Shown piece after piece: positions 8,966 through 62,762 of a stretch of 64,000 nt of DNA. Within the stretch, counting starts at the first letter, position 1; each line of letters opens with the position of its first letter. The DNA comes from Prevotella sp. (lineage in GTDB: Bacteria > Bacteroidota > Bacteroidia > Bacteroidales > Bacteroidaceae). Where the stretch lies: the NCBI GenBank assembly GCA_017623155.1, contig JAGAPR010000004.1:62001-126000 (forward strand), written 5' to 3'. The notes under the pieces are model-generated. The model worked only from the letters and a program-made list of their open reading frames with translations. It ran no database searches and was not told the origin of the DNA. The position numbers and the translations under genes were made by a program.

Positions 8966-9013
8966 GCTTTTACCTTTCTTTTAATTGTTAATATTAATGG
9001 TGTCAATGTTTTA

Positions 9014-10960
9014 TCATTTGTTCATCACTTTTTTCACACTTCCGTCGCTCATTCTTATTATTGTAAGTCCGTGTGCCTTGCCTGTCGAACGGCGTCCGTC
9101 AATGGTGTAGCGTGCAGTTTCAGTGATGTTCTTGGCTGCCTCCGTGACACTCTCGATGCCGGTAGGACCGTCGTAGATAAGTGCTTTCTCGTCGGCGTTG
9201 ACGATTTCCTGTGTCTTGGTGTTTATCACCATGGCCACGATTTTCAGCTTGCTCTTGTCTTGCAGCACCTTATTCTCGGACAGGTCTATTGTGTATTCGT
9301 GAGTTTGTGTCGCTCCTTCCACTATCGGAGCCTTGATTATGCCTTTCAGTCCGTTTGACACACCGATACCTGCGATGGCCACGTGGTCGTATACCATGTC
9401 CTTGATGGTAGACGGCTTGCTTATCCATTCTCTCATGTATTCGTCAGACATGAATGAAGTCTTGTTGGCGTAATAGTTTGCTTGATACCATCCCGTAGTG
9501 GTTCCCGTCAGACTGTCGGCCACCACTACATATGCAATGGAGTACGGAGCCGAGTTTGAATTGTATTGGAATGTGATGTTCGTGTTCACTTTTATCTTTG
9601 TGTATTCGGCGTCGGCCCATGACGGAGTGACATCCACCGATAACTCGGCGGGAATTTCAAGCATTTCCTTGAAGTCGTTTTCTATATACATCGGCAGCGT
9701 GCATGTCGGGTCTGAGCCGTAGTACGGGTCTATGATGGAGGTTCGGTTCAGCGTGGCGCTTGGCAGGTTTTGACCGTAAGTACTTACTACCGTATTGTAT
9801 ACCGAAACTTTCATCGGGTCGGTTTTTGTCATGTTGGTGTGTGCGGCGATACCTATGAACGAGTCGGGATAGCGTTCTTTCATCAGTCTCAGTCCGGTAA
9901 TTCCTCTCGGGCAGTAGCCGCATCCCGTGGCGGTGAACTCTTCTTCCACTATCATTCGTTTTGATTCTGCAGCCAGAGTGAACAGTGTTCCTTGTGCCGA
10001 TATGTTTTCTGAGCATGCGTTCGGCTGTCCGTTCACCTTGTTGATGACAATCATCATCTTTGCCGTTCCGGATTCTTCCTCGGCGTTGATAGGGAGTTTC
10101 ACTATTCCCGTTGAGTCGAATCCGATTGTATTCTCGCCCAGTTCGGCGTGCATGTCATACGAGCAGTTTTTCGCCGTGTTGGTCACCGTATAATCAAGCG
10201 AACTTATGGGTGTGGTGCCTTCTCCGGTGATTATCAGCGACACTTTTCCGCCTTTGTTTTTGATGGCTCTGCTTTCAGATGCGAAATTGGCTGCCACCGT
10301 GGCTGCGTTTTCCGGGAAATCGCCACTGATGCTTACCATTGTGGTCAGGTTACCAAATCCGGTGCCGTACATGTTTGTCCATTCCTGTACCGTGAGTGAT
10401 GCGCGGAGGAAATGTCCTCCGTTTACGGCCGGCTCTTCTGTCGATGCCGTTATCACCGGGTACTTGCCGTCATATTCCGACGCGTCTTCGATGGAGAACG
10501 AATAGCCCACATAGCATCCGCCTTGCGGGATGGTGTAGGGTGTAGACAATGTTACGGTGGTGAAGTTGTCCATGTAGCTTACCGGGTTGGTTATGTCTAC
10601 GCAAACCCCGTCGGCACTCTCGGCCGAAGCCGGCAATGTAGACGAAATCCACATTTTCGGAGCAACGAGCAGTCTCGGTTCTGTGAGCAGGAAAGCCACG
10701 CTGTCAATCTGTTTTCCGGCATAATCGGCCGGCACGAATATTGCGCAGTCGTACGACGCGGCGGCCTCTTCGCCGAGCGTGCTTGCGCCCGTCAGATTAA
10801 AATATGTAAAAACTTTCGATGCTTGTGCCTTTGCCGGCGCTTGATGACGATTATTATATTTTTTTTTGGTAAAAGAGCCTTTGCCGGCTGTGAGGCCTTG
10901 TGCGCAAATTGTGCCGCATAAGGCGAGAATGATTACAGATATAAAAATCTTTTTGTCCAT
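9014..10960 (-). CDS. Omp28-related secreted protein with thioredoxin-like domain
   Basis: This 648-residue exported protein has a signal peptide at residues 1-20 (ending GTICAQ). Residues about 45-320 form a beta-rich N-terminal region. After it comes a thioredoxin-fold segment, beginning RMIVEEEFTATGCGYCPRG, with a CxxC active-site motif (CGYC). This arrangement is characteristic of the Omp28-related family of Bacteroidetes. The C-terminal tail (ARYTIDGRRSTGKAHGLTII) resembles that of the next gene and may direct type IX secretion. It is the first gene of a probable two-gene unit with the propeller-like protein. A thiol-disulfide role is possible but not proven; CxxC proteins of this family are also found as adhesin-like surface proteins. 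Confidence 0.75.
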   Translation of the reverse strand: MDKKIFISVIILALCGTICAQGLTAGKGSFTKKKYNNRHQAPAKAQASKVFTYFNLTGASTLGEEAAASYDCAIFVPADYAGKQIDSVAFLLTEPRLLVAPKMWISSTLPASAESADGVCVDITNPVSYMDNFTTVTLSTPYTIPQGGCYVGYSFSIEDASEYDGKYPVITASTEEPAVNGGHFLRASLTVQEWTNMYGTGFGNLTTMVSISGDFPENAATVAANFASESRAIKNKGGKVSLIITGEGTTPISSLDYTVTNTAKNCSYDMHAELGENTIGFDSTGIVKLPINAEEESGTAKMMIVINKVNGQPNACSENISAQGTLFTLAAESKRMIVEEEFTATGCGYCPRGITGLRLMKERYPDSFIGIAAHTNMTKTDPMKVSVYNTVVSTYGQNLPSATLNRTSIIDPYYGSDPTCTLPMYIENDFKEMLEIPAELSVDVTPSWADAEYTKIKVNTNITFQYNSNSAPYSIAYVVVADSLTGTTTGWYQANYYANKTSFMSDEYMREWISKPSTIKDMVYDHVAIAGIGVSNGLKGIIKAPIVEGATQTHEYTIDLSENKVLQDKSKLKIVAMVINTKTQEIVNADEKALIYDGPTGIESVTEAAKNITETARYTIDGRRSTGKAHGLTIIRMSDGSVKKVMNK

Positions 10961-46671: not shown

Positions 46672-49600
46672 ATGATGAAACAGTTTAAGCGAGTGGACAA
46701 TTTGGTAGGGTGGCTGTCTTTTTTGATAGCTGCTTTCGTTTATTGCTCCACGATTGAACCGACAGCAAGTTTTTGGGACTGTCCGGAGTTTATAACAACA
46801 GGGTATAAACTTGAAGTGGGGCACCCGCCGGGAGCACCTTTCTTTGCCATGACGGCAAACATATTCTCGCAATTCGCAAGCGACCCGACGCAAGTGGCAT
46901 ACATGGTTAACATGATGAGCGCGCTGTTGTCGGCCATCACCATAATGTTTTTGTTCTGGTCTATATCACATCTCGCACGTAAGTTGCTCATCAAGGATTG
47001 GAGTGAGCTTACCGTGGCGAAAGTCATTGCCATAGAAGCCTCTGGACTTGTGGGCGCGCTGATATACACTTTCAGTGACACGTTCTGGTTTAGCGCGGTC
47101 GAGGGCGAGGTATATGCCTATTCATCGGCATTCACGGCCATTGTGTTTTGGCTCATATTGAAATGGGAAGACCATGCCGACGAGCCTCACAGCGACCGAT
47201 GGTTAGTGCTCATCATGTATATGACCGGTCTGTCTATCGGAGTCCATCTGCTCAATTTGCTCTGCTTGCCGGCGATAGTGCTCGTTTACTACTACCGTCG
47301 TTTCCCGCACAAAAATTCGGATGCCGATTTGCGCGGCTCGCTGATAGCACTCGGAATATCGGTAGCCATACTCGTGGCGGTGCTTTATGGCGTTGTGCCG
47401 GGCATCGTGCGTGTGGGCGGATGGTTTGAATTGTTCTTCGTGAACACCCTCGGTTGCCCGTTCAATACAGGCGAGATTGTATATATAATACTTCTTGTGG
47501 CATGTATTATTTGGGCAATATATGAGACATATAAAGACAACAACCAGAAGCGCGGCAATATCGCTTTCATGGCATCAGTGGCCATGCTCGGTATTCCTTT
47601 CTACGGCCATGGTATATCTTCGATTGTCATCGGTGTGATAGTGCTGTCGGTATTGTGGCTTGTGTTGAAGTATACTAAAAAGGGTATGCCGCTTATCAGC
47701 TCGCGAGTGAAAAACACTTCGCTGCTCTGCATGCTCATGCTGATGATAGGATATTCCAGTTATGCGATGATAGTGATACGTTCATCGGCCAATCCTCCCA
47801 TGGACCAGAACTCCCCCGAGGATATATTCACTCTCGGAGAATATCTCGGACGTGAGCAATATGGCAACCGGCCGTTGTTCTACGGACAGGCTTATACGTC
47901 GCAGGTTGCTCTCGATAAAGAAGGAGAATACTGCCGTCCGCAGATGAAGAAAGGTGCGCCGGTATATCAGCGTAAGGAAAAAGCATCTGCCGATGAGAAA
48001 GATTCATATTTCGTAGTACGCACGAAAGATGAGTATAAGTATGCCCAAAACATGCTGTTCCCCCGAATGTATAGTGATACTCATGCCAGCGCTTACGAGA
48101 GTTGGATGGGCGGTGTGAGCGGAAGTCAGGTGCCTTACGACCGTTGTGGCGAGCCGATGATGGTCAAGATGCCGTCGCAATTGGAAAATCTACGTTTCTT
48201 CCTGTCTTACCAATGTAACTTCATGTATTGGCGTTACTTTATGTGGAACTTCGCAGGACGCCAAAACGACTTGCAGGGAAACGGAGAACTCGAGCACGGC
48301 AACTGGATAACCGGCTTCTCATGGTTCGACAACTGGCGGCTCGGAAATCAAGACCTGTTGCCCGATGAACTGAAAGAGAACAAGGGACATAACGTGTTCT
48401 ATTGTCTGCCACTGCTGCTTGGTATTATCGGATTGCTTTGGCAGTCGTTTAGAAAAGGTCCCAACGGAATACGCCAATTCTGGGTTGTATTCTTCCTTTT
48501 CTTCATGACAGGACTTGCTATTGTCATATATCTTAATCAGACACCAATGCAACCGCGTGAACGCGACTATGCTTACGCCGGCTCATTCTATGCATTCGCA
48601 ATATGGTGCGGACTCGGAGTAGCGGCTATTATAGACGAGATAAACCGCAGGTTGAAAGGCCACGAAAATGTTGTTGCGGCAATAGTGGGAATTGTCTGCC
48701 TGCTTGTACCTGTACAGATGGCATCTCAGACATGGGATGATCACGACCGTAGCGGACGCTATACATGCCGCGATTTCGGACAGAACTATCTTATGTCGCT
48801 TCAGAAAGAGGGTAATCCTATTATCTATACCAACGGAGATAACGATACCTTCCCACTTTGGTATAATCAGGATGTGGAGGGAATACGCACCGACGCGCGC
48901 GTTTGCAACCTCAGCTATCTGCAAACCGACTGGTATATAGACCAGATGTGCCGTCCGGCTTATGACTCGCCTTCCGTGCCGATAACATGGAACCGACTTG
49001 AATATTGCTCCGGAACAAACGAATATGTGCAACTTAATCCGATGCTGAAAGAAAGCATCAAGGAGCTTTACAGCATATATCCGGAAGAGGCCAAGAAGAT
49101 GTTTGGAGATGAACCGTTTGAGTTAAAGAACATACTCAAATACTGGGTGCGCAACGAGGTCAACGACAGTCAACGCGACGTGATGTCGCTTATGGCCGGC
49201 GGCGACCGCGAAAGCATTCATGTAATTCCCACCGATACAGTGTATGTCACAATCGATAAAGAGGCGGTAAGGAAGAGTGGAATGATGATGGCTACCGATT
49301 CAATACCGGACAAGATGGTAATCTCGCTCGCCGGAAAGCGTGCCTTGTATAAAGGTGACCTCATGATGCTCGAGATGATAGCGCAAAGTAACTGGGTGCG
49401 CCCGATTTATGTGGCTCTCACAGTTGGTTCAAACAACTACATGAACCTTGGAGACAACTTCATACAAGAGGGACTTGTGAACCGCATCACACCGTTTACC
49501 ACCAACGTTCCCGGAGCAAAGAACTTCGATACAAAGCGAAGTTACGATGTGATGATGAACAAGTTTAAGTTCGGAGGCATATCGAAGAAAGGTATATACA

Positions 49601-50061
49601 TCGACGAAACGGTGATGCACATGTGCTATACACACCGCCGTACATTCGTGCAGTTGGCGATGAATCTTGTCGTTGAGGGACAGAATGAGAAAGCAGCAGA
49701 AGTGCTTGCATACGTCGACAAGAACATCCCTGAGTACAATGTGCCGCTCGATTATCAGTCGGGTTCGCTTGATGAGGCTCGCGTTTACGCCGCGATAGGC
49801 AACAAAAAAGCCGCAAACCATTTGATAAAGGAGTTGTGGAAGAAGTCGAGTCAGTACATGAATTGGTATCTGTCGCTTGAGGGTATCCGCTTCACAAGTT
49901 CGCAAAGAGAGTGCTTGGCAAATCTGCACATCATGCAGCAAACCGCCATAATAGCCGGCGAGACAGATCCGGCATGGGGCGAAAAGAAGATGAAAGAAGT
50001 AGAGATATTCGCCGAGAGATATCAGAACAAGGGCGGAAAATTTAGTTTGGAAGGCCAATAA
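46672..50061 (+). CDS. DUF2723 membrane glycosyltransferase-like protein
   Basis: This 1129-residue integral membrane protein has an N-terminal hydrophobic half (to about residue 680) with a GT-C-like layout. The conserved acidic motif SFWDCPEF, in the first extracytoplasmic loop, is the DUF2723 hallmark. The C-terminal half is a soluble region with helical repeat-like segments (AMNLVVEGQNEKAAEVLAYV). DUF2723 proteins are widely conserved in Bacteroidota and are proposed to be lipid-sugar-dependent protein O-mannosyl/glycosyltransferases. Length is normal. The gene ends ten bases before the deacetylase gene and is probably cotranscribed with it. Confidence 0.88.
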   Translation: MMKQFKRVDNLVGWLSFLIAAFVYCSTIEPTASFWDCPEFITTGYKLEVGHPPGAPFFAMTANIFSQFASDPTQVAYMVNMMSALLSAITIMFLFWSISHLARKLLIKDWSELTVAKVIAIEASGLVGALIYTFSDTFWFSAVEGEVYAYSSAFTAIVFWLILKWEDHADEPHSDRWLVLIMYMTGLSIGVHLLNLLCLPAIVLVYYYRRFPHKNSDADLRGSLIALGISVAILVAVLYGVVPGIVRVGGWFELFFVNTLGCPFNTGEIVYIILLVACIIWAIYETYKDNNQKRGNIAFMASVAMLGIPFYGHGISSIVIGVIVLSVLWLVLKYTKKGMPLISSRVKNTSLLCMLMLMIGYSSYAMIVIRSSANPPMDQNSPEDIFTLGEYLGREQYGNRPLFYGQAYTSQVALDKEGEYCRPQMKKGAPVYQRKEKASADEKDSYFVVRTKDEYKYAQNMLFPRMYSDTHASAYESWMGGVSGSQVPYDRCGEPMMVKMPSQLENLRFFLSYQCNFMYWRYFMWNFAGRQNDLQGNGELEHGNWITGFSWFDNWRLGNQDLLPDELKENKGHNVFYCLPLLLGIIGLLWQSFRKGPNGIRQFWVVFFLFFMTGLAIVIYLNQTPMQPRERDYAYAGSFYAFAIWCGLGVAAIIDEINRRLKGHENVVAAIVGIVCLLVPVQMASQTWDDHDRSGRYTCRDFGQNYLMSLQKEGNPIIYTNGDNDTFPLWYNQDVEGIRTDARVCNLSYLQTDWYIDQMCRPAYDSPSVPITWNRLEYCSGTNEYVQLNPMLKESIKELYSIYPEEAKKMFGDEPFELKNILKYWVRNEVNDSQRDVMSLMAGGDRESIHVIPTDTVYVTIDKEAVRKSGMMMATDSIPDKMVISLAGKRALYKGDLMMLEMIAQSNWVRPIYVALTVGSNNYMNLGDNFIQEGLVNRITPFTTNVPGAKNFDTKRSYDVMMNKFKFGGISKKGIYIDETVMHMCYTHRRTFVQLAMNLVVEGQNEKAAEVLAYVDKNIPEYNVPLDYQSGSLDEARVYAAIGNKKAANHLIKELWKKSSQYMNWYLSLEGIRFTSSQRECLANLHIMQQTAIIAGETDPAWGEKKMKEVEIFAERYQNKGGKFSLEGQ

Positions 50062-50070
50062 GATTATAAG

Positions 50071-50682
50071 ATGATTATAGAGCAGCCTGCAATGTGGTTG
50101 CGCTGGTTATATCCCAGAGCAACATGGAGAATGGATAAGCACGAGAAAGTCGTATATCTGACTTTCGATGATGGCCCTATACCCGAGGCTACGCCATTTA
50201 TTCTCGACACACTTGCCGCTGCCGGCGTTCATGCCACTTTCTTTATGGTGGGGGATAATGTCAGAAAATATCCCGAATTATACGAGAGAGTAGTGTCTGA
50301 GGGGCACAGGATAGGCAATCATACTTATAATCATATAGGAGGATTTCGACATTCGATAAAGGCGTATTACGACAATGCGGAGAAAGCGAACGAGTTGCTT
50401 CACACAAATTTGTTTCGTCCTCCGCATGGATGGATGCGCTTGGATCAGTACATTTGGCTCGGTCGCAAATACAGGATTGTTATGTGGGACTTGGTGACAA
50501 GAGACTATTCGAAGTGGATGACGGCCGAGGGGGTTCTCAATAACGTTAAGCGATATGTTCGCAATGGGTCGATAATAACCTTTCACGACTCGCTCAAAAG
50601 CATCGACAAATTGCATAAAGCCTTGCCCGAAGCAATAAAATGGCTGAAAGAACAAGGTTATGAGTTCAAGACTTTTGAATAG
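50071..50682 (+). CDS. Polysaccharide deacetylase family protein (NodB-like)
   Basis: This 203-residue protein has the complete NodB homology domain: motif 1 TFDDGP (catalytic base and metal Asp), motif 2 GNHTYNH (metal His pair), motif 3 FRPPHGWM, motif 4 WDLVTRDYS and motif 5 IITFHDS. It should therefore remove N- or O-acetyl groups from a glycan such as peptidoglycan or a cell-surface polymer. There is no signal peptide or membrane helix, so it is probably cytoplasmic or anchored by other means. It follows the DUF2723 gene by nine bases, placing it in a glycan-related unit. Terminator follows at 50706. Confidence 0.9.
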   Translation: MIIEQPAMWLRWLYPRATWRMDKHEKVVYLTFDDGPIPEATPFILDTLAAAGVHATFFMVGDNVRKYPELYERVVSEGHRIGNHTYNHIGGFRHSIKAYYDNAEKANELLHTNLFRPPHGWMRLDQYIWLGRKYRIVMWDLVTRDYSKWMTAEGVLNNVKRYVRNGSIITFHDSLKSIDKLHKALPEAIKWLKEQGYEFKTFE

Positions 50683-51050: not shown

Positions 51051-51484
51051 GACACTTCGAAATCTCGCAAATTTCCTAAGTTCAGTCAGAACATGGCAAC
51101 GGTAGATGCTCATGGGATGTTTTTATAGGCATTCCTATTGCTGTTATATCATGCCATTATTGTATCCTTACGATGATGTGCATTGGTGTAATGGTATATG
51201 GGGATAATTATATAAACGCATCGGCGTGGGTTCTGCGTTGCTCGTTCTACTAAGATGGGCAATGCGAGAAGCCTCAGAGTGTGGGACGGGCGACAGGCAC
51301 GGATCTCCACGCTTGAACCTAAATGTAATGCTTAACAATTTGTAGATCAGTGCTCATATATAACTGAAAGGCTATTTTGATACCACATGTTTTCCATCGA
51401 TTGTTAAGGTCATTGTTTCCCCCTTACACGAATTGAAAATGATAATTGAGCGCATTTTATTCCACCATTTGCAGTTTACATTCA
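51051..51484. other. Noncoding tract with hairpins at the left edge of the island
   Basis: No reading frame of note is present. At 51205-51320 there are two stem-loops: GCGTTGC with GCAATGC (one wobble) around a loop containing TTCTACTAAGATGG, and AGTGTGGGA with TCTCCACGCT. The layout recalls the 3' guide-RNA end of IS200/IS605-type elements, but no transposase or TnpB gene is nearby. The rest (51321-51484) is AT-rich with no structure I can name. It separates the ncRNA candidate from the TOTE gene. Confidence 0.35.
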
Positions 51485-54331
51485 TTAACACCGTCCACCT
51501 ATAATATCCAGCAGTTCATTGGCTATAGATGAATCAACGATTCGTAGCACGTTGTTCTCTTCTGTGTTGTACCCAAAGAAGTTGATGCTGCCATACCATA
51601 CTGTGGATTTGTCTATTATCGCACCTTGCACTGACAGGTTTTCGTCGTACTGGATTCCTATGCCATATGCCACTAATTCTTGATCGCAATAACCTTGTTC
51701 CTTGACACAGACAACAATTTCAAGACCATTGCTCATCAGGTCTCGTAAAAGATATAATAATCGAGGGGTGTATTTGTACTTTATCTTCTGACAGGAGATG
51801 ACTATGCTATGTTTGGCTGCAAGCATGTCTTGACGGAATGGTTGGGAAAAAGAATGACCATCATAAATCAATTCTGGCCTTGACACGCTATTTCCATCTG
51901 TTGGTTTCGGGACACCATAACCCACAGATGCGTACCCTCTCAATCGCTTTCGATACATAGAATCGCAGAGGTGAACGCGTATGTCAACATAGTCATAGAT
52001 ACGAACCTCATTCTTTCCCTCATAATCCCGATGCAATCTGCCTGCATATTGGGCTATATTCCCTTTCCATGAAATGGGTAGCGCAAGAAACAGCGTGTCA
52101 AGTCTTGGATAGTCAAAGCCTTCACCGATGTATTTGCCTGTGGCAACTATGACCAAAGTATCGGATGAGGGAATGTTCTCCAATTTTTCCATTGCTATTC
52201 TCTTCTCTTTCGCAGAGTCTGCACCTACAAGACTTACTACATGCATTGCATGAGGTTGCAACAATTCCGTCAAGATTCTCACATGGGATGTCAAGTTTGT
52301 AAGGATGATTGGAGTTCGTCCTTCTTCAATTACAGTTTTCACATCCTCTATGATGAGCTTGTTTCTCACATCGTCTGTTGATAAAGCCTCTATGGTTTGA
52401 GTATATGTTTTGGTATCAGGCAAGACATTACGGAAAGATGTGAAACGCGGTATTAGGGTGCGGACAAAGCTTTGTCTGTCCATTTGGCTTTTTGCATCAG
52501 CAGTATATCGTATCTTACCACATTGCATGAAGATGATGGGTTGATGTCCGTCCTTGCGCATCGGGGTGGCAGTAAGTCCATAAACGTAATGAGCTTTTAC
52601 TTCTTTCATTACTTGTTCAAAGCTTACAGATGAGACATGATGACATTCGTCGACAATCACCATGCCGTAGTCTCGAACGAAAGGTTTAACCTCGTTGTTT
52701 TCCAAACATGATTGAATCAAGGCAATGTCAATCACTCCATGCAGAGAGTCCTTTCCCGAGCACAGTTCCCCTATGGGAGAAAGGTCTTTCTTCCGTCGTT
52801 TTGATTTGCCATCTACGACTTCGTTTATTTCCAAAAAGTCTTTCAATTGCTTTTTCCACTGGTCGAGCAGCGACTTCCTGTGTACCAATATCAACGTGTT
52901 CACTTTCCTTTGAGCAATCATCGCAATGGCAAACACGGTTTTCCCAAAAGCCGTTGTGGCAGATAGTGTGCCAACAGGATGAGAAAGCATGCATGACATG
53001 GCTTGCTGTTGTTCTTCACGAAGTTCACCTTTAAAAGTTACATTGATGGCTCGTCCGTGACAGGTCTTATCATCTATGGAGTATTTTACATTGTTTGTTT
53101 CAAGGAGATCCACCACATCATCTTCGCATCCACGAGGCAGAGCTATAAATTTGTCCGTCAATTCTGAGCATGATATTATACGAGGAACATCATAGGTTGA
53201 CAGCCTCATACCTTGCTTTGCATAAAACTCAGGATTATGAAAAGCCGCCATTCGCTTAAAATAGTTGATGGTCTTAGCCGACAGGCAAGACAATGGAATA
53301 TACAGCATATTCGCCCTTATCAACGTGATATTTGGTGGAAAATCTGATTGGTCAATAGTCTCTGGCTTAGGTATTTCCCAAGGTTTTCCCTCGCTACTTT
53401 TTGTCAATTCACCCGATGTCGAAGCGTGTTCTTGTAGAATGACATCAACGGTTGCCTCTGACAGTTTCTGAATACCGAGAAGGAATGCCCATTGGTCGAG
53501 ATAAGGCTGGAAAGTTTCATTTACAAAAATGCTGTTGCCATTCCTTCGTGCCTGTCCTTGTAAGGGTAGCGCCACGAGATTTCCCAATCCACCATTGGGC
53601 AATGTGTCTTGGTTAGGAAAAAACCTGTCGTATGATTTAAAGGATAGATGCACCTCCTTATTCATTGCCTCTGACAGAATAGACTTTCCCAGTCGTCTTG
53701 CTTTAATGGCTGCTATGGCTGTGTCAAAGAACACCCACACGTGTGCCCCATTGCCGGAGCGTGACCGCTCAACGTAACAAGGAACGCCCCATTCCTTGCA
53801 TACACTTGTAAAAGCAAGCACATCTTGCTGATACCCATGCTCACAACTCTTGTCATCGAAATCAGTACAAAGGAAATAGCAGGTGTTGTCATTCAACATC
53901 GGATATAAGCCAACTACATCACGGCCATAGGCATCCTTACCTGCAAGGTGGTTGAAGATATGTTCGTATGATAATGGAGCGAATTTTCGGTTAGGACATT
54001 CTGAACATTTGTATTTACGCTTATCGCAGAACTCCCTGTTCCATTCCCGTTCGCACACCGGTTGATAGCCCGACTTCTTAGACGTATCGCTATACCATCT
54101 TTTGGCAAAGACATCCTTGCGCCCTTTGAATAGGCTTTGGAACAACTCCACCTTTTCCTGCAAAGAAAGGCTGATGGTTGAATTCGTTGGGCTTGAGGAT
54201 TGGGACGCAGTAAGGTTCCCATCATGAGCACACGCTTCAAACGGTATGCCATGTTCGGCAAGAAGAGACCTTAGTCGCTTGTTCTCCTCTTCCAATTCGT
54301 ACAATCTTCTCATGATGGTATCTGCATCCAT
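51485..54331 (-). CDS. TOTE conflict-system primase-helicase-PLD protein
   Basis: This 948-residue protein combines several modules. A short N-terminal coiled coil (about 1-28) leads to a Cys cluster (C93, C102, C109, C112), then a TOTE-type archaeo-eukaryotic primase domain with the metal motif CTDFDD (about 155-160) and SGNGAHVWVFF (192-202). Next is a superfamily 2 helicase with an AFGKT ATP motif (about 461-465), DECHH (561-565) and VATGKYIGEGFDYPRLDTL. The C-terminal 130 residues resemble a phospholipase D-type nuclease (AIIDKSTVWYGSINFFG), but the usual HxK is not visible. TOTE proteins are predicted anti-mobile-element systems. The XRE gene lies ten bases upstream. Confidence 0.85.
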   Translation of the reverse strand: MDADTIMRRLYELEEENKRLRSLLAEHGIPFEACAHDGNLTASQSSSPTNSTISLSLQEKVELFQSLFKGRKDVFAKRWYSDTSKKSGYQPVCEREWNREFCDKRKYKCSECPNRKFAPLSYEHIFNHLAGKDAYGRDVVGLYPMLNDNTCYFLCTDFDDKSCEHGYQQDVLAFTSVCKEWGVPCYVERSRSGNGAHVWVFFDTAIAAIKARRLGKSILSEAMNKEVHLSFKSYDRFFPNQDTLPNGGLGNLVALPLQGQARRNGNSIFVNETFQPYLDQWAFLLGIQKLSEATVDVILQEHASTSGELTKSSEGKPWEIPKPETIDQSDFPPNITLIRANMLYIPLSCLSAKTINYFKRMAAFHNPEFYAKQGMRLSTYDVPRIISCSELTDKFIALPRGCEDDVVDLLETNNVKYSIDDKTCHGRAINVTFKGELREEQQQAMSCMLSHPVGTLSATTAFGKTVFAIAMIAQRKVNTLILVHRKSLLDQWKKQLKDFLEINEVVDGKSKRRKKDLSPIGELCSGKDSLHGVIDIALIQSCLENNEVKPFVRDYGMVIVDECHHVSSVSFEQVMKEVKAHYVYGLTATPMRKDGHQPIIFMQCGKIRYTADAKSQMDRQSFVRTLIPRFTSFRNVLPDTKTYTQTIEALSTDDVRNKLIIEDVKTVIEEGRTPIILTNLTSHVRILTELLQPHAMHVVSLVGADSAKEKRIAMEKLENIPSSDTLVIVATGKYIGEGFDYPRLDTLFLALPISWKGNIAQYAGRLHRDYEGKNEVRIYDYVDIRVHLCDSMYRKRLRGYASVGYGVPKPTDGNSVSRPELIYDGHSFSQPFRQDMLAAKHSIVISCQKIKYKYTPRLLYLLRDLMSNGLEIVVCVKEQGYCDQELVAYGIGIQYDENLSVQGAIIDKSTVWYGSINFFGYNTEENNVLRIVDSSIANELLDIIGGRC

Positions 54332-54341
54332 AATCGTAGTC

Positions 54342-54629
54342 TTACATGATTGTTTTTTGTGCCACTTCTATGGCATCCCGTTTCAGAATATGGTCATTTT
54401 CTGTACCTACAGCATCTATCACTTTGTCGGCAAGCCATAGCTTCAGCATCTCGTTCTCATCTTGATGCAGCAATTCTGCAAGTTTGACTACTTGCTCTCG
54501 TTTGGCTCGTCTATCTCCACGCTCAATCTTACTGAACATAGGGGTATCAATCTCTAAAGCTGCTGCCAGCTGGCGTTGCAACAAACCTTGCTCGTCTCTG
54601 AGCTCTCTGATTTTGTCTCCAAATAACAT
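54342..54629 (-). CDS. XRE-family helix-turn-helix regulator
   Basis: This 95-residue protein has a helix-turn-helix (residues about 5-60: IRELRDEQGLLQRQLAAALE, then FSKIERGDRRAKREQVVKLA) and a short C-terminal helix. The type is usual for small autoregulators of defence and toxin loci. It begins just downstream of direct repeats spaced 11-12 bp (54649-54778), which are good operator candidates, and it is followed ten bases later by the TOTE gene. So it probably controls its own operon. Confidence 0.88.
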   Translation of the reverse strand: MLFGDKIRELRDEQGLLQRQLAAALEIDTPMFSKIERGDRRAKREQVVKLAELLHQDENEMLKLWLADKVIDAVGTENDHILKRDAIEVAQKTIM

Positions 54630-54648
54630 ATCTCTTATTTTCTTTAAG

Positions 54649-54778
54649 TTCGACTAAACAAATTTTGTTCTACTAACGCATAAAAGATGCATTGTTATTG
54701 ATTATCAGAATATTATAAATTCAAATGTGTACACTTCGACTAATATTTCGACTAAAGTTGGACTAAACTTTGACTAAA
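54649..54778. repeat. Direct repeats (TTCGACTAAA) upstream of the XRE gene
   Basis: Four copies of a TTCGACTAAA-like unit occur at 54735 (TTCGACTAA), 54747, 54758 (TTGGACTAAA) and 54769 (TTTGACTAAA), spaced 12, 11 and 11 bp. Two more are at 54649 (TTCGACTAAA) and 54668 (TTCTACTAA). The last copy overlaps the final codons of the AlbA_2 gene. The one-helical-turn spacing suggests a protein-binding array, most likely for the XRE regulator. Confidence 0.65.
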
Positions 54779-56433
54779 ACCCACTTCTTGCCGTTTGTTA
54801 ATTCGATAATGCCTTCTTTTTTGAGAGCCGATAGCAAGTTACTTATCTTTCGTATCTTCTGTTCATCTGTCAATACATCAGACAATTTGGATTGCAATAG
54901 TTGATTGAGCTCGCCTCTGGTAGCTCCACCGAACGATTTTAGGTATGATATGATCATCTCTTTGAAGTGCATGTCATTGAAGCTCCTGTTTCTGATGTAT
55001 TCAGTTTTCAGTTCTTCATTATTGGCAGTTTTGGCAACATATTCCGACAGGTATAACTTGGGATAGCGTCCTTCTATAAGGTGCAACTTCCTTAATCGAA
55101 TGGCAGTCTCTTTGTCTATAGTGTCATGTTTCTGTACCATATCCAATGCTATGCAGTCATTTAGAGACAGATTGGGATTGGCTTTCAACAAACGATAATA
55201 TTCCTCATTGATAAGTTTGCCGTAGATTTTTACTGTGACTTCCTTTCTTGCTTGGTCAATCTTGTAATCGGGCATTGGGAAGAAACGTTTTTGTTGTTCT
55301 GTGAACACCTTTCGGATTCCTCTTCCAATTGTGTCTATCATATTAAAATTAACCATACCCTGGCACAGGGCATAGTTTCGATAGAATTTCTGTGGACCAT
55401 TCTGTTCAATTGCATTCCTGACAGTGCCAGGAAGAAAATATCCTCCATTTGCGAAAGTCACAGAATTTGGATCTTCCACCATGGTAATACGTTCCTGCAT
55501 GGTGTAATCTTGGTGAGCTATACAATTATGGAGCACCTCGCGTATGCTGTAGTCATCGTATTGTTTGACAATGTCTGGAAACAAAGTTCCACCGGGTAAG
55601 ATACGCTGATTCAGATTGCGAATCCTTGACAATGCCTCATTTACTGTCAGAATAAATGGCGTAGGGAAGTGCTCGTAATCAATCTTCTCGTCATGGTCAT
55701 CAATCAGTACCCATGTGATAGTAGCCACAGCGGGACTAATCAGATGAACCGCAGTCTCTTTACCTAACAATAAAATTGCAGCACGTGTCAGTTTACTTTT
55801 TATTGCCACGCCAGCACGATTAAGCAGTTCCATATCATCCCATTCATCAACTTCATCTGCTAAGCGGGGATGAACTGCCTTGTACTCATCACGTGCTTTA
55901 ACCAAGGCCTTTCTGTCAAGGTCGTCCAAAGTGGCATTTTCAACAATCTCTGCAGACCAATCAAAAACAGGGCTATTTTCTTCCAATATGGCATTCAACC
56001 TCTCTTGAGTTAATTCCACCAAGGAATCCTCAATGCGTTGCCATGCCTTGTTATGGGCATATACCGGTAATTTGGGGCGATGTTTAGGAATGTGAATCAC
56101 CCAAACCTTCTTTCTGGTATCATTCGTGATGAACTCTTCAACATCAAGTCCTTCTGTAGATAGATTGGCACAGCGTTCCGTCAATCTCAGAATAGCTTTC
56201 TGTCTATCATAATTGTAGATGTCAGTTCCAATGATATCTAATGTCTTATCATGTACACCTATCACAAGATGCCCGCCCTCCATGTTGGCGATAACCGACA
56301 CGTAAGAAATTACATTATCTTTCTCGTCCCCGCAGAACGAATTCTTCATATTCTTAAATTCCTTCCACTCGCAGCGAGCATTTTCCTGTGGGTACTCGCG
56401 GAGGAGATATTGTTGTAATTCGAGTTCGGTCAT
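54763..56433 (-). CDS. AlbA_2 (Schlafen-like) putative DNA-binding ATPase regulator
   Basis: This 556-residue protein starts with an AlbA_2 domain (residues about 10-130; ENARCEWKEFKNMKNSFCG, then VIANMEGGHLVIGVHDKT). Next is the ATP-binding, RecG-C-terminal-like region (about 270-420, with REVLHNCIAHQDYTMQERIT and NGGYFLPGTVRNAIEQNGP and GRGIRKVF). The C-terminal part has winged-helix segments (SLNDCIALDMVQKHDTIDKE, and MHFKEMIISYLKSFGGATRG). Such proteins are common near defence and mobile-element genes, where they act as regulators or effectors. The gene lies 133 bp upstream of the XRE-TOTE pair and 99 bp downstream of the giant gene, all on one strand. The function here is inferred from the domain only. 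Confidence 0.85.
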   Translation of the reverse strand: MTELELQQYLLREYPQENARCEWKEFKNMKNSFCGDEKDNVISYVSVIANMEGGHLVIGVHDKTLDIIGTDIYNYDRQKAILRLTERCANLSTEGLDVEEFITNDTRKKVWVIHIPKHRPKLPVYAHNKAWQRIEDSLVELTQERLNAILEENSPVFDWSAEIVENATLDDLDRKALVKARDEYKAVHPRLADEVDEWDDMELLNRAGVAIKSKLTRAAILLLGKETAVHLISPAVATITWVLIDDHDEKIDYEHFPTPFILTVNEALSRIRNLNQRILPGGTLFPDIVKQYDDYSIREVLHNCIAHQDYTMQERITMVEDPNSVTFANGGYFLPGTVRNAIEQNGPQKFYRNYALCQGMVNFNMIDTIGRGIRKVFTEQQKRFFPMPDYKIDQARKEVTVKIYGKLINEEYYRLLKANPNLSLNDCIALDMVQKHDTIDKETAIRLRKLHLIEGRYPKLYLSEYVAKTANNEELKTEYIRNRSFNDMHFKEMIISYLKSFGGATRGELNQLLQSKLSDVLTDEQKIRKISNLLSALKKEGIIELTNGKKWVLVKV

Positions 56434-56532
56434 ATTATATATTTCTACAAGGTTCTATTTCGGTTATTTATCGCTTATTTTTGTTTTCTTTTTATAAGTA
56501 TGTTGAACATGTTCAAAGACAGTTATTATTAT

Positions 56533-59500
56533 TCACTCTGTATCCATAGAACGATTTAATTTTGTCTCCCAAATAGGGTGGCCATTATTATCTTTGCCTA
56601 AATATTTAGCAATGAAAGATTCTCCCTTTTTAAAATCCTTTTTCTCTTTGAACAGATACTTTTTGTGTACAATAAATGAATTACCTTGAATTTTAATAAT
56701 TAGACCTATTGGCATGAAAGATTGTACTTTGGCATCATATTCCGTTCCAACTGACAATTCTAATACATGAGAAGCTTTCTTTTTTAAATTTTGTAACGAT
56801 ATAGTCTTCTTTTTACCATTAGCATTTGTTGTCGTTAGGTTTTGCTCATCGTCAAAATCTGATATTGAAGAGTATTTACATGTGATTACAATACGTAAAG
56901 TTCTATCAATGATACCATATTTCTTTTCTTTCTTATTATCTGAAGTGTAGTAAGTATATGGATTTCTTCTATAACCATAGCCGATATGGCGAACTCGTAT
57001 TTTTTTTGAGATGGTTCGAGATACAGCATAAAAGCCATTGCCAATTGATCTGACAGACTCGTATACTAATTCCGTCTTTTCATTGGCAATATTACCAATT
57101 GCTACTTTACTTCCTTTCCATAAAGCCAGAATGCCGTCATTATCCAGTATTTCTATTTTTGAATACCCTGTTGGAATAAGAATCTCATCAGCATCATTAA
57201 ATACAGAATAGTCTCCATATGATGATCTCAAATATCCACCAGCAAATGTTTCCACATCGGCTATTTCATTACCATTGATATCTAAACCGCCGACGCTACT
57301 ATTGCGAGTCGCTTGGATAGATCCATCTTCTTTACATAAAATATCAGTATATTTGAAATCTGTAAGAGTTTCACCCTTAATGCTAAACAATGCATACTTG
57401 TTCTGCTTGCAGACTTTTAGAAGCGTATCTGCGAGGAATTCAATGTTAGAGAAATGTTCGCCCAAGGATAGAATAACAGTTCCATCAGCATCTTCCAGTC
57501 CCCTATCTGCAAAACAACGCGTTAGAATGAGTCCGTTGTCACAATAGTTTTTTTCTACGATGGCATTGCCATTCAAATCAACAAAGCCTTCATACCCGTT
57601 AATGCTGACTTTAAATAATTCCTCATTAGCTTCTATAATGGAGTCATATTCCCTATCACTCAAATAGGTACAATTTTTATTTGCTAATTTCCATGTAGGT
57701 TTTACATTATATCCAATACCGTATTTTTGTAATGCAATATAGCCATTATCCAATAGTACAACCGATGAAAAACATTCGGAAGATAATTGATTTATGCCCC
57801 TATATAATTGATAGACATTTTTATAGGAATTAGAATAGTCGTATGATGCCCCCTGTGTTTTTACGACAAGTATTTCACCCACGAGATGGGTAATGTCTAT
57901 AAAGCTATTCTCTGATGTCTTTTTCACTTCTGAGGAATATAATTTGACTTTTCCATAGTAAAATGTCAACATGAATATTCCGTCATACAAATGTTCAATT
58001 TCTTTACATCCGTCAAAATACTCACATTCTCCATTCACAAATAAGCCAGATTTACCATCGGTATTTTTTATTATAGCTGTTGTTTCAGAGATAAATAAAA
58101 CTTCAGAAAGGCTATAACTGACAAGCTCTTCACTATTTGACGACAATATTGAATACAATTCCCCCGAATGCCTGATATGATATTGCCCTATAGTTTTTTC
58201 CGTATAGACAATTGAAAGACGATTCTTTGACAACAAATACGTTTTCCTGTTAATCCATATGGTGCAAAATTCCTTATTTTCAACAACAGTAAAAAGTGTT
58301 GATTTAGAATGATCAGACCAATTCTTGTGACAGATTGGATGGCCTCCATAGTGACTTTGAGAATAAGAATAACTATATGTGTTGGTTTGAAGTATATAAT
58401 TCGTTTTGCCATTCTCTTCTTCCTTTATAATTGATTGCTTTTTATCATCATAATCGCTCCTCAAAGAGAAATATTCATCTCCCAGCCAGAGATCAATTCG
58501 CTTGTATGAAGCCATTACAATCCCATGTTGGCTGTTTATTATATCTATATTCTTATACTCAACAGGTACGATTTCCTTACCATCTTTTCTTACCAATCCA
58601 ATTTTTCTGTTGAATCCCACTTTTGCATAGCCATTTTCACCAATGATTTCCGCACTTGTGTATTTTGCAGGAATAATTGTTGTGCCTTCAAAATGGTAGC
58701 CATATTTTGTGCCACTACGAAAACGTTCTACACATTTGTCTGTATTCAATAATTGCGATTGAAGGTTGGAACGCTCTGCGTCCCTCATTCTTTCAAGCTC
58801 TTCTTCATGCTTTTGGCGTTCCATTAAGGCCTTCAAAATATCTTCGCGAGAATTTTCAAGTTGCTTTCTACGTTCAACATATTCTGGATGTTTTTCAAGA
58901 TATGCTTTATCAGCATCTATTATGAATGGTTTGTGGCTTTCCTCATCATATTGGAACATATCCAATGTTACGAACTCATCGCTACTCCACACTCCATTCT
59001 CATCAAGCCAACGACATTTTAAAACAAGTTCGCCTCTTTCTTTTGACAGTTCTTCTGCATCTGCATCAAAAATAAAAACATTACGTTTGTTGGCATAGTA
59101 AATGTCCTTGCACATGAGATTATGCAAGTTAACGTATTCTTTGTTGTCTTCAAAGTTAAATACCCATATTATATGGTAATTATTTAATCGATAAAAAATA
59201 TCTCTATCCACAATGACACTAACAAATGTCGTAGAAAGTTGGAGTTCAAACACATATTTACGGCCATTATATTCTGCGTATATATCTGGACGCCTCCATT
59301 TAAGATATGGGATTTCGCTATTGATGCGTTTCTCGCATTCAACTTTTCCGACTCCCATTGATTTACTTTTTTCTCCCTCCAGTACAGATGCAATAGCAGC
59401 CTTTAAGCGCTTATGCCTTTCACTTTCTTGTACCAGAGAATATTTGAGCCTTTCAATTTCTTCTTTTGTCCTGTTAGTACCAGTTTTGTATGGGCAATCA

Positions 59501-61101
59501 TCAGAATCTTTAAAATGTGCAAAGTAACATACTCTTCCTCTTTGCAACTTATGACCATTAATTTTTACAGGCTGTTTACATTCAGGGCAAATGAAACGCG
59601 CATTCCCCATTAAGTACTCTTCTTGAAGATTGCGACGCCAAAGAATTAATTCGCTCTCATGTTGAGAGAAAAAATCTCTTGCATTTATGATTCTATCTTC
59701 TTTGACATCATACACTTCTGGAATAGACAACTTTTCAGCAGGTATTAAACCAATGTCGTATATGTTAGGTAGAGTGTCGTCTTCAAACGCTTCATCAACG
59801 GCTTCATCTGTATTTACAGAAGCAGCCTTAAAACATTCTTCTTCCTCGTTGTGTTTCTGTTCAGCTATCTCTTCTTCCTTAAGCAGGTGCTCAGCTTCTC
59901 CCTGTTCTTTACGTTTTCTTTCAGCTTCCTCTTCTTCACTGCGTTTTCGCTCAGATTCTTCTTGCTCAATCAGTTTCTTTTCTTGCTCTTCTGCTACATT
60001 AGACGCAGAATCTAAACTTATTTTTGAATCATTCAGTTCTTCAAGTGTGCAATCAATAGAATCAACTAATTCACGTGAAGACTTTATAACATCTTCTAAT
60101 GAATTCTTCACTTCTTCATGTTTGATGGTTGATGAAATAGACATGGCAGAATCCAATGAATTCTGCAAATTCTCTCTTGCTTCTTTAATCGCAGATTCAA
60201 TTGCTTCCTGCTCTTTCTTTGCTTCAACCAGATACATGTAAGGCGATAACTCTTCTTTTTCTGCAATCAATTCTTGAATTTGTTGTTGAAGAGAGTCGTT
60301 TTCAGTCTTTTGTTTATCTAATTCTTCGTGTAGTGCGGATTTCTCACTTTCTTTACTTGAACTTTCTTCAGTTAAAAGATTTATCTTTTCCTTTGCTTCG
60401 GCAGAGTTTTCCTTTAAACGACTGTTTTCACTTGTCAATTCGTCTACAGCAACTTGCAATGAATCGGATCTCTCTGATAGAATGCGATTTCGTTCCTGTA
60501 ACTGGGCTAATTTATCTTCCAAAAACTTTTTTGCCGTTTTTTCACTTTCTATAGTTCTATTTGTGTCTTCTAGTTGTTCTTTATTTTTGTTATAATCGGA
60601 TTGGAGTTTATTATAGTTAGCCTCCATCATAGAAATTATAGCATCTTTCTCGGATAGTTCTGATTGTTGTCTTAACTGATTTGTCTCCAATAGTGTGGTT
60701 TTTTCTTCAAGTGCCTTTACTTTATTTGTAAGGGCTAGGTTCTTACCATTTAACGATGTATTAGATTTTATAGTTTTCTCATACTTATCTTTAAACTTTT
60801 GTTCTGAAGTCCCAAGTATTTCATTTTCATTTTTTAGCTCTGCAATGATTTTACTTAGGTCATCAACTTTACCTTCTAGGATAGAATATTTGTTTCTCTC
60901 CATATTCACATCCTTAGATAAAGAAACATTCTGTTGCTTTAAGGACGCGATTTCGTTATATTTTTCTGTTAGCGACGTTGAATATCTGGATACTTCTTTC
61001 TTTGCAGAAGAAATATCTTTTTTTAAGGAGTTGATTTCCCGCAAAAGATTGTCTATATCGACTCCATTTAATAAATGTTGAATATTTGAAAGAAATGCCA
61101 T
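56533..61101 (-). CDS. Giant coiled-coil/CoiA-like nuclease/WG-repeat/S1 protein
   Basis: The 1522-residue protein is assigned start ATG complementing 61099-61101 (MAFLSNIQHLL); the codons upstream of it begin at TTG. Residues about 15-300 are a long coiled coil, followed by a charged Glu/Lys/Arg-rich stretch (about 370-425). Next is a CoiA/DUF6035-like unit. It has a zinc cluster (CPEC at about 505-508, C525, H529, C536, in FICPECKQPV and VCYFAHF) and then PDIYAEYNGRKYVFELQLS (D about 605, E about 619, Q about 621), which resembles a PD-(D/E)xK nuclease core. Residues about 800-1440 are WG-type beta repeats. The last 80 residues are an S1-like RNA-binding domain (VGTEYDAKVQSFMPIGLIIK). No exact architecture match is known to me. 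It is the first gene of the island. Confidence 0.75.
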   Translation of the reverse strand: MAFLSNIQHLLNGVDIDNLLREINSLKKDISSAKKEVSRYSTSLTEKYNEIASLKQQNVSLSKDVNMERNKYSILEGKVDDLSKIIAELKNENEILGTSEQKFKDKYEKTIKSNTSLNGKNLALTNKVKALEEKTTLLETNQLRQQSELSEKDAIISMMEANYNKLQSDYNKNKEQLEDTNRTIESEKTAKKFLEDKLAQLQERNRILSERSDSLQVAVDELTSENSRLKENSAEAKEKINLLTEESSSKESEKSALHEELDKQKTENDSLQQQIQELIAEKEELSPYMYLVEAKKEQEAIESAIKEARENLQNSLDSAMSISSTIKHEEVKNSLEDVIKSSRELVDSIDCTLEELNDSKISLDSASNVAEEQEKKLIEQEESERKRSEEEEAERKRKEQGEAEHLLKEEEIAEQKHNEEEECFKAASVNTDEAVDEAFEDDTLPNIYDIGLIPAEKLSIPEVYDVKEDRIINARDFFSQHESELILWRRNLQEEYLMGNARFICPECKQPVKINGHKLQRGRVCYFAHFKDSDDCPYKTGTNRTKEEIERLKYSLVQESERHKRLKAAIASVLEGEKSKSMGVGKVECEKRINSEIPYLKWRRPDIYAEYNGRKYVFELQLSTTFVSVIVDRDIFYRLNNYHIIWVFNFEDNKEYVNLHNLMCKDIYYANKRNVFIFDADAEELSKERGELVLKCRWLDENGVWSSDEFVTLDMFQYDEESHKPFIIDADKAYLEKHPEYVERRKQLENSREDILKALMERQKHEEELERMRDAERSNLQSQLLNTDKCVERFRSGTKYGYHFEGTTIIPAKYTSAEIIGENGYAKVGFNRKIGLVRKDGKEIVPVEYKNIDIINSQHGIVMASYKRIDLWLGDEYFSLRSDYDDKKQSIIKEEENGKTNYILQTNTYSYSYSQSHYGGHPICHKNWSDHSKSTLFTVVENKEFCTIWINRKTYLLSKNRLSIVYTEKTIGQYHIRHSGELYSILSSNSEELVSYSLSEVLFISETTAIIKNTDGKSGLFVNGECEYFDGCKEIEHLYDGIFMLTFYYGKVKLYSSEVKKTSENSFIDITHLVGEILVVKTQGASYDYSNSYKNVYQLYRGINQLSSECFSSVVLLDNGYIALQKYGIGYNVKPTWKLANKNCTYLSDREYDSIIEANEELFKVSINGYEGFVDLNGNAIVEKNYCDNGLILTRCFADRGLEDADGTVILSLGEHFSNIEFLADTLLKVCKQNKYALFSIKGETLTDFKYTDILCKEDGSIQATRNSSVGGLDINGNEIADVETFAGGYLRSSYGDYSVFNDADEILIPTGYSKIEILDNDGILALWKGSKVAIGNIANEKTELVYESVRSIGNGFYAVSRTISKKIRVRHIGYGYRRNPYTYYTSDNKKEKKYGIIDRTLRIVITCKYSSISDFDDEQNLTTTNANGKKKTISLQNLKKKASHVLELSVGTEYDAKVQSFMPIGLIIKIQGNSFIVHKKYLFKEKKDFKKGESFIAKYLGKDNNGHPIWETKLNRSMDTE

Positions 61102-61173
61102 ACGATTATTTTTTGAGTGGTTCAACAAATATTATTAAAGACCATTTTAATATGTTGGGATTATTTAGGGAGG

Positions 61174-61458
61174 GACTGACTAAAGGAATCGAACCTTCAT
61201 CCCCGACCAGATTTGCTACCAGCGTCAGTCTTTTTCGAGAGTGTTAGTCAAGTGCCTACTTTCGTTGATACTTTTTTGAGTCTTTTACATCCTCGTAAGC
61301 TCCTAGGAGATTGCAGTTGAGAGAAATCTCGTTCACAAGGCTCGGTTGCTAACAGTACTGCTACATATCTCCATTCAAGGTCAGCAAACTTGTTGCCAGT
61401 TGTGATACTATCCACAACTTTTTAGCAGCTTGAATCCATCTCTCTGATTCAAGCTACT
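61174..61458 (-). ncRNA. Candidate structured RNA with a tRNA-like 3' domain
   Basis: Reading the minus strand, a 57-nt domain (complement of 61174-61230) opens GACTGAC and closes GTCAGTC (7-bp acceptor-like stem) and contains a T-arm-like hairpin GAAGG-TTCGATT-CCTTT (complement of 61182-61198). It is too short for a complete tRNA because the anticodon arm region is missing. Upstream on the same strand are strong hairpins, including a 13-bp stem at 61424-61436 / 61446-61458 with one wobble, and GTTGTG/CACAAC. A tRNA-like element attached to a hairpin-rich body recalls YrlA-type Y RNAs or a decayed tmRNA; neither is proven. No coding frame fits. Confidence 0.4.
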
Positions 61459-61920
61459 TTCTGAAATAATTTATATTCATAATTGTAACTTAATTTATGA
61501 CCTTCGCATATCAGGCTTAGCGTTGGTCGGGTTAGTTGCCTGTTAGTATGTTTTATCATTAAAACGACCAATCTCACATTCATAATTATCGAATATTATA
61601 CTAGCATAAAATCTATGTGGGAAGGCCGACTTCACTTATAAAGATTTGTCAAATTTTGACTATAAAGATATAAAAACAAATGCAGACTCTCGCATAAATG
61701 GACGAAAATCTGTAATTTAAAGATGTAAAAAAGGCGTTTTAACTCGGTTTTAGAATGAAAACTAATCTATTTAACCCGTTGGCGGAATTAAAAAATAACA
61801 AATTATCAGACACTTCAGCGGACAGAACTTATTATCGCATGCGCACTCAACCGTAGAACTATATACGCTGAATAGTTACGAAACACAAACGAAACACATT
61901 GTAGGGACGCACGGTTCGTG

Positions 61921-62599
61921 CACTACTGTCCCAAGAAAAATTTAACATTCAATTTTCATGTATATTTTGGTCTGGTAAAGTGACAAAATGTCAAAAGTCA
62001 AACAAAGGCAGTATCTGCGTATTTTCCGGTCGTGGCATTTGTCCTTCACTGCGCAAGATTAAATCATCAATCCATACTTTCTCCGTGGTGAGACGTTCAT
62101 GAGGTTGCAGAATTTGTTCATCCGACATTTGGAGTGACGTAATATCTGATTATTCGTAGGGACGCACGGTTCGTGCGTCCGCTTGTAAAACACTGATAAT
62201 CAACCATTATCCATTCGGACGCACGAGCCGTGCGTCCCTACAATGTGTTTCATTTGCATTTTGACACAGCTCCCTACGGGCAACGGGAAAACGTTTATAC
62301 GCAGGCATGAATTCAATATCCGGCATGTTAGCCCGATTATCACTCCAAATATCGGATGAACCGCAAAATTCATACCGTTGCTTTTATTGACCAGACGGTC
62401 GAAAGTATCCTTTAAAAGATAGTTTGTGAGCTGAGTAAAAATGTAAGGAGTTTGGCGCATTTGCTGACATTTTGATATTTGATGCAAAAATACATTTAAA
62501 ACATCGTATTAAAATGTACCGCGCGCTTTTTTATACTATATCTTGCTTATACATAGCAGTTTAAATATAATTGTTAACAACTTTCTTGGGACAGTAGTG
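61921..62599 (-). mobile_element. 679-bp IS derivative with terminal inverted repeats and 11-bp target duplication
   Basis: Perfect 18-bp terminal inverted repeats (CACTACTGTCCCAAGAAA at 61921-61938 and its complement at 62582-62599) bound the element. It is flanked by an 11-bp direct repeat, CACGGTTCGTG, at 61910-61920 and 62600-62610. On the minus strand the right part encodes a transposase-like start (KCQQMRQTPYIFTQLTNYLL, then KDTFDRLVNKSNG) resembling IS4-family N-termini, and the left part ends with PENTQILPLFDF and a stop. The middle of a normal transposase is missing, so this is a non-autonomous internal-deletion derivative. An 11-bp duplication fits the IS4 group. Family assignment is tentative. 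Confidence 0.7.
62156..62241. repeat. REP-like palindrome (intact copy)
   Basis: A 26-bp left arm (62156-62181, GTAGGGACGCACGG...) pairs with a right arm at 62216-62241 with one mismatch, separated by a 34-base loop. It lies inside the IS derivative. Fragments of the same arm type occur near 38276. Confidence 0.85.
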
Positions 62600-62762
62600 C
62601 ACGGTTCGTGCGTCCGAATAAATAACACCTGATTATCAATAGATTATAATGCGGACGCACGAACCGTGCGTCCCTACACCTTGTTGGTAATCATAACTCT
62701 AAACTCTGCACTCATAACTCTTCACTCCGTTTCTTCCCTTTGGGAAGATTAAGAGGGGCTCC

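Follow-up and report, generated by a model that had tools for sequence, protein, structure and literature searches.

What is the function of a protein that joins a long coiled coil, a zinc ribbon, a CoiA-like nuclease domain, WG repeats and an S1-like end in a single reading frame? The gene that raises this question lies in a stretch of 64,000 nucleotides (nt) of Prevotella sp. DNA (contig JAGAPR010000004.1, positions 62,001 to 126,000; hereafter the window), and its product is referred to as the giant. The single open frame of 1522 codons stated in the original prediction, which was made without database searches, was confirmed; it runs on the minus strand from an ATG at 61101 to 56533, and an alternative TTG start 27 nt upstream would extend the protein to 1531 amino acids (aa). 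Its length and its relatives argue that this frame did not stay open by chance. Pfam detected DUF7830, DUF6035, CoiA_nuc and WG_beta_rep, all over cut-off, and the order along the 1522 aa is coiled coil, DUF7830, DUF6035 nuclease, WG repeats and S1-like domain. The gene is present as a single copy in its own genome (84% complete). Its GC content is 34.4%, that of the three genes behind it 41-44% and that of the left flank (46672-50682) 47.5%. We consider the giant to be probably a stand-alone, horizontally moving defence effector, for which its position provides the best evidence.

Analysis of the three genes behind the giant by Pfam confirmed the predicted TOTE and AlbA_2 neighbours. They encode, all on the minus strand, an SLFN_AlbA_2 protein of 556 aa with a RecG-like C-terminal part (54763-56433), a helix-turn-helix (HTH) regulator-like protein of 95 aa (HTH_31/HTH_3; 54342-54629) and a 948 aa protein composed of an AEP-TOTE primase, an SF2 helicase and a weak, sub-threshold PLD-like C-terminus (51485-54331). 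Besides the window, seven TOTE neighbourhoods were examined (L087-L093; some of them cut by contig ends). The four closest (L087-L090) carry a TOTE protein 65-87% identical to that of the window, and in all four, hence in five of five with the window, an HTH gene (69-96% identical) stands directly before TOTE. An AlbA_2 gene precedes the HTH gene in L087 (97% identical) and L090 (54%); in L089, Pfam assigns AlbA_2 and RecG-like domains as in the window, but the protein has no BLAST match to the AlbA_2 protein of the window, and no AlbA_2 gene was seen in L088. The more distant loci L091-L093 have neither the HTH nor the AlbA_2 gene.

Comparison of the position occupied by the giant revealed other cargo in the related loci. 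MkoA/MkoB-like and IetA-like genes take the place of the giant in L087, DruE was found in L089, and KwaA (2.6e-28) and KwaB (2.8e-73) in L090, where TOTE is broken. Kiwa was named by Pfam too; the other systems carry PADLOC labels, to which we attach the names Druantia, Mokosh, Shango and Qat on our own assumption. DNA at 51222-56434 of the window is 91.4% identical to L087; the match breaks off at the start codon of AlbA_2, which marks the cargo junction. Beyond the L087 cargo the leader of the window reappears (L094, 82% across 109 nt), with two integrase genes further out. On the other side of the island, DNA similarity to nine genomes of the same genus, chosen among 95 that also carry the left-flank gene, ends at about 50.7 kb. 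ARAGORN found no tRNA in the window, and no integrase was seen beside the island, for which neither precise borders nor an empty site are claimed. The giant fills its cargo position alone, and since known defence systems occupy this position in related bacteria, it probably acts as a defence system of a single gene.

All four genes are encoded on the same strand, separated by 99, 133 and 10 nt, and the giant could also form a four-gene system together with AlbA_2, HTH and TOTE, in which it would act as the nuclease of a primase-helicase conflict system. We regard this as unlikely. TOTE relatives occur in 23 of 251 genomes of the family (E ≤ 1e-100), giants in five of 399. None of the seven other TOTE neighbourhoods contains a giant, and conversely TOTE, AlbA_2 and HTH are unmatched around the seven other giants (6.6-24.3 kb of DNA each; short for L055, L011 and L016). 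AEP-TOTE proteins (PF22548) adjoin the giant in the window, yet are encoded by a separate gene that recurs without it, and the suggestion that giant, TOTE and AlbA_2 form one system found no support.

Searches of genome contigs and plasmids yielded eight distinct giants: those of the window, L011, L012, L013, L014, L016, L018 and L055 (L015, a near-identical copy of L014, was counted once). L013, L014, L016 and L055 come from genomes of the family or order of the window, L012 is labelled Bacteroidales and L018 lies on a Prevotella plasmid. L011 is labelled Pseudobutyrivibrio; its core is 87% identical to the giant of the window, so misbinning or transfer is likely. The order nuclease, WG repeats, S1-like end is common to the seven relatives, three of which also have the coil. 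DUF7830, DUF6035 and WG exceeded the Pfam cut-offs in all seven giants scanned. In L013 the gene is broken into two frames; its WG repeats were found with a home-made profile, and its second frame, taken alone, reached 15.3 bits for S1 in Pfam (cut-off 22). Uniqueness of this order was not supported, as the architecture recurs outside the window; among the papers listed in the limited literature collection searched on DUF6035, TOTE, WG repeat, UG26 and CoiA with anti-phage, none was seen to describe it. A Prevotella plasmid protein in PLSDB annotated as 'DUF6035 family protein' (WP_237827879.1) has WG repeats and S1 as well.

The giant shares its zinc ribbon and CoiA-like nuclease with the DUF6035 family (PF19500, with DUF7830, PF25169) and adds to this core a coiled coil, WG repeats and a divergent S1 domain. 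In contrast, 13 shorter members of 416-727 aa show at most two weak WG-like stretches with a lax profile, and the only one of them scanned with Pfam (L062) has no WG and no S1. A protein search of the family detected the DUF6035 core in six of 399 genomes including that of the window; five of these contain giants and the sixth a short member. Profile searches gave nine of 393 genomes in the order and six of 395 in the phylum, the genome of the window counted each time; these numbers refer to the DUF6035 core, and many matches are short members. We count this sparse occurrence of the giants in favour of a mobile defence effector. A stretch of 13.9 kb with an integrase gene is 99.66% identical between L014 and L015, whose genomes belong to two genera. 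Viral contigs contained four distant DUF6035 loci, none resembling the WG giant (L065 is incomplete).

Inspection of the neighbourhoods, a check proposed with the original prediction, revealed no restriction to housekeeping genes. Clear defence or mobile neighbours were found for four of the eight giants (window, L012, L014, L055), and the picture is mixed elsewhere. L014 is accompanied by a PDC-S02 gene and an integrase gene, and HEPN and nucleotidyltransferase genes adjoin the giant of L055. L013 is suggestive, with WYL and exonuclease genes nearby; the protein encoded directly upstream of this relative (8268-9482, 404 aa) has no Pfam or PADLOC match. In L012 (4073-14350), TerB_C, SngB, SngC and RT_UG26 genes and the giant follow each other in one run on one strand, the giant, closely related to that of the window (80% within the nuclease core), directly downstream of the reverse transcriptase gene of this Shango-type locus. 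Such a run could represent a composite system. The giant of the window has no SngB, SngC or reverse transcriptase match by PADLOC, and no such genes adjoin it. Among the shorter DUF6035 proteins, one adjoins QatA in L022, and another is encoded directly downstream of DndC, DndD/PbeC-like and DndE/DndH-like genes (L062, 973-8674). On plasmids, restriction-modification, toxin-antitoxin, Qat or SIR2 genes were present in seven of 11 DUF6035 neighbourhoods, which were hand-picked from search lists of 34 and 116 records and classed by product name. As a control for seven of these 11 plasmids, defence genes were found in five DUF6035 neighbourhoods and in none of the seven stretches half a plasmid away (one of seven if a Sir2 deacetylase is counted).

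The presumed catalytic part of the giant consists of a DUF7830 zinc ribbon (residues 470-542; 59476-59694, minus strand; E 2e-19, 69.7 bits, gathering score 27.5) with C505, C508, H529 and C536, and a DUF6035/CoiA-like PD-(D/E)xQ nuclease domain (residues 555-686; 59044-59439, minus strand; E 6e-13, 49.5 bits, gathering score 22.6). Within the latter, residues 602-678 match CoiA_nuc (E 5e-7, 30.4 bits, cut-off 20.3). An alignment of 19 family members, selected by us, showed that C505, C508, C536, E559, H563, P605, D606 and E619 are invariant and H529 nearly so; Q621 is kept in 18 of 19, with L in L018. D606, E619 and Q621, encoded at 59239-59286, are part of what we take to be a D...ExK/Q motif. 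The Zn finger and PD-(D/E)xK-like segment of the original prediction were thus recovered, and of its two catalytic residues E619 was correct, whereas residue 605 is a proline and the conserved aspartate is D606. This residue pattern is that of an active PD-(D/E)xQ enzyme, from which we infer nuclease activity.

CoiA presumably acts on incoming single strands in competence. The giant might accordingly serve mobile elements in handling nucleic acids, such as incoming single strands, and not be an immune effector. Like the CoiA competence nuclease (PF06054), it has a nuclease-like domain over cut-off with conserved D...ExQ residues; relatives are found on plasmids and on an integrase-bearing element, and S1/OB ends can bind single strands. 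We nevertheless consider this role quite unlikely. The CoiA_N match is below the Pfam cut-off (19.4 bits versus 26.3), and the giant does not combine CoiA_N and CoiA_nuc as a full CoiA does; it further differs from CoiA in its very large C-terminal extension and in its neighbours, several of which are defence systems, while no competence genes were seen by name beside it. The systems that were validated against phage in E. coli also include one for which a CoiA domain is listed (PMC9519451); what it shares with the giant is the domain label, and section 7 of that paper mentions no WG-S1 half.

The C-terminal half of the giant is the candidate recognition part. The WG-repeat region extends over residues 805-1418 (56848-58689, minus strand). 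Pfam called one WG_beta_rep stretch (E 2e-10, 41 bits, gathering score 25.6), and iterating a home-made profile at a lax threshold raised this to about ten recognisable stretches; this number is approximate because the lax profile also matches one or two stretches in five of the 13 shorter members, which lack the array. The original prediction had named many WG-type repeats. Behind the repeats, a divergent S1/OB-like domain is placed by tail alignments at about residues 1438-1516 (56554-56790, minus strand). Among seven giants scanned, Pfam called S1 in L014 (1.2e-8), L018 (5.5e-9) and L055 (9e-20), and not in the window, L011, L012 and L016, where the assignment is based on the tail alignment and is least convincing for L016. 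A profile from the window-type tails alone had no PDB match; aligned with the clear S1 tails of L014, L018 and L055 by hhalign, these tails gave an E-value of 5.5e-4 with a probability of only 30%. The family tail alignment including the three clear S1 tails matched Rrp5 (2e-26), bS1 (3e-24) and PNPase (5e-12). In the giant of the window, neither Pfam nor NCBIfam called the predicted S1 end, which aligns weakly with the clear S1 relatives.

Comparison of three close giants showed 2-5 times slower change in the nuclease than in the WG/S1 part. Between the window and L011, the nonsynonymous divergence (dN) was 0.068 for the nuclease, 0.13-0.33 for the four shared WG stretches and 0.22 for S1. 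The pairs window-L012 and L011-L012 gave the same ranking (nuclease 0.12, WG 0.33-0.54, S1 0.39-0.50). In addition, the giant of the window lacks three WG-repeat blocks that L011 and L012 share, without a break of the frame and through either gain or loss. Positive selection in the WG half cannot be claimed, as the synonymous divergence (dS) is saturated. A catalytic half that is held while the C-terminal half changes is what may be expected of a recognition arm.

The N-terminal coiled coil (residues 1-450; 59752-61101, minus strand) contains one proline and three glycines in residues 21-300. A coil-like N-terminal extension was found in four of the eight giants (window, L011, L013, L016). The original prediction had called it SMC-like. 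The coiled coil itself was confirmed, but the SMC homology was rejected in favour of a generic coil: the match to TIGR02168 reached 35.6 bits against a cut-off of 567 and covered the coil region only, Pfam found no ATPase domain, and an SMC head and hinge were not seen. A PADLOC match of LmuB to the coil (8e-5) and three weak PDB matches, two of them to named coil or checkpoint proteins, were likewise taken as coiled-coil noise.

Several observations weigh against the interpretation of the giant as a defence effector. The giants of L011, L016 and L018 have no clear defence neighbours, four of the 11 plasmid loci (L018, L019, L075, L077) lack defence genes by name, and the neighbours of the shorter members L056, L057, L059 and L061 look ordinary by eye. 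Two of the seven positive plasmids, both from Pontibacter, share neighbours and are not independent, and mobile DNA of any kind often carries defence genes. The cassette sample comprises five loci, of which L088 has no visible cargo. By sequence, no solved structure in the PDB is related to the nuclease, and the S1 domain of the window stays below every single-sequence threshold. The faster change of the C-terminal half, seen in only three close giants, could reflect weaker constraint, and a sensor role of the WG repeats is a guess.

Upstream of the giant, two non-coding elements were found on the minus strand. A conserved cassette leader (61643-61751) with a hairpin at 61712-61683 followed by a T run recurs in L094 and, with 74% identity over 61641-61731, in L088, where it lies close upstream of HTH; the hairpin is kept in all three loci by eye. 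A GTCAAA-A-TTTGAC inverted repeat near this hairpin, also noted by eye, could be an operator of the HTH protein. The non-coding stretch right of the leader (62100-62700) shows copies of a short dispersed repeat (GTAGGGACGCACGG...) by eye. Between leader and giant, a structured RNA candidate of about 375 nt was detected (61160-61535), based on a two-sequence consensus. A search of 399 genomes revealed one other good match (L099, 6134-6512; 74%, E 2e-60), and two others, only 25-27 nt long, seem incidental. In the consensus, 81 of 81 pairs are kept with eight two-sided changes, which two of 500 shuffles reach and slid controls (33-49% paired) do not; since the structure was derived from the same two sequences that score it, these numbers are biased in its favour. 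The single-sequence fold is modestly stable (z -1.49; seven of 100 shuffles fold equally well). No Rfam family matched above chance (a single match at E 0.75, to the opposite strand; none in L099), ARAGORN did not identify the RNA as tRNA or tmRNA, and plasmids, phages and viral contigs contained no match.

This RNA, about 60 nt upstream of the gene, together with the S1-like end would fit an RNA-controlled toxin, in which the RNA binds the S1 end and silences or guides the nuclease in the manner of RNA antitoxins. AbiF with RCd22 provides a precedent for an RNA antitoxin (PMC12373285). The only other good copy of the RNA has an AbiD-like and a TIR-like/WD40 gene as neighbours, not a giant, and we judge this reading very unlikely. 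The link between RNA and giant is unproven, because the available DNA of no other giant locus matches the RNA. A partnership of the RNA with the Abi_2 gene of L099 was unsupported as well, as a 93% identical Abi_2 gene in L102 has no such RNA in the 2 kb upstream. The other neighbour in L099 (2413-5175, minus strand) encodes a protein of 921 aa, in which Pfam finds WD40 propeller repeats and whose N-terminus is TIR-like by PADLOC models.

For the giant as a one-gene defence effector, the features described above suggest the following mechanism. The killing part would be a CoiA/DUF6035-type metal-dependent nuclease presented by the zinc ribbon and, in the subtype of the window, multimerised by the coiled coil. 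The WG array and the S1/OB-like end would meet the invader; the WG repeats may diversify as blocks are gained or lost and substitutions accumulate faster, and binding of nucleic acid (presumably RNA or single strands) by the S1-like end may bring the nuclease onto its target. Domain content, residue conservation, the recurring architecture, the faster C-terminal change, the signs of mobility and the cargo-slot position are observed; from these we infer such a substrate, sensing by the WG repeats, binding by the S1-like end and protection against phages or plasmids. The new anti-phage or anti-plasmid effector of the original prediction is a fair reading at this level. Expression of the giant would take place from the cargo position of an exchangeable cassette in the order leader, cargo, AlbA_2, HTH and TOTE, whose operon is probably controlled by the HTH protein. 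Going further, a plug-in immunity cassette can be envisaged, with a fixed chassis of leader hairpin, AlbA_2, HTH regulator and TOTE primase-helicase, and defence systems swapped into the first position; here the occupant would be a one-protein system, a nuclease whose WG-S1 recognition arm diversifies block by block and which has its own structured RNA, read by the S1 arm. In this full form we hold the idea to be doubtful.

The recurrence of the giant architecture, the cargo-slot argument and an RNA without Rfam family are new points of this analysis. If the giant is a defence effector, a family so far known by DUF numbers would turn into an immune effector of a single gene, in which catalysis and recognition reside in separate halves. 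The AlbA_2-HTH-TOTE cassette would then offer a route to further defence systems, with any occupant of its cargo slot as a candidate, and would raise the question why diverse systems share TOTE and AlbA_2 proteins.

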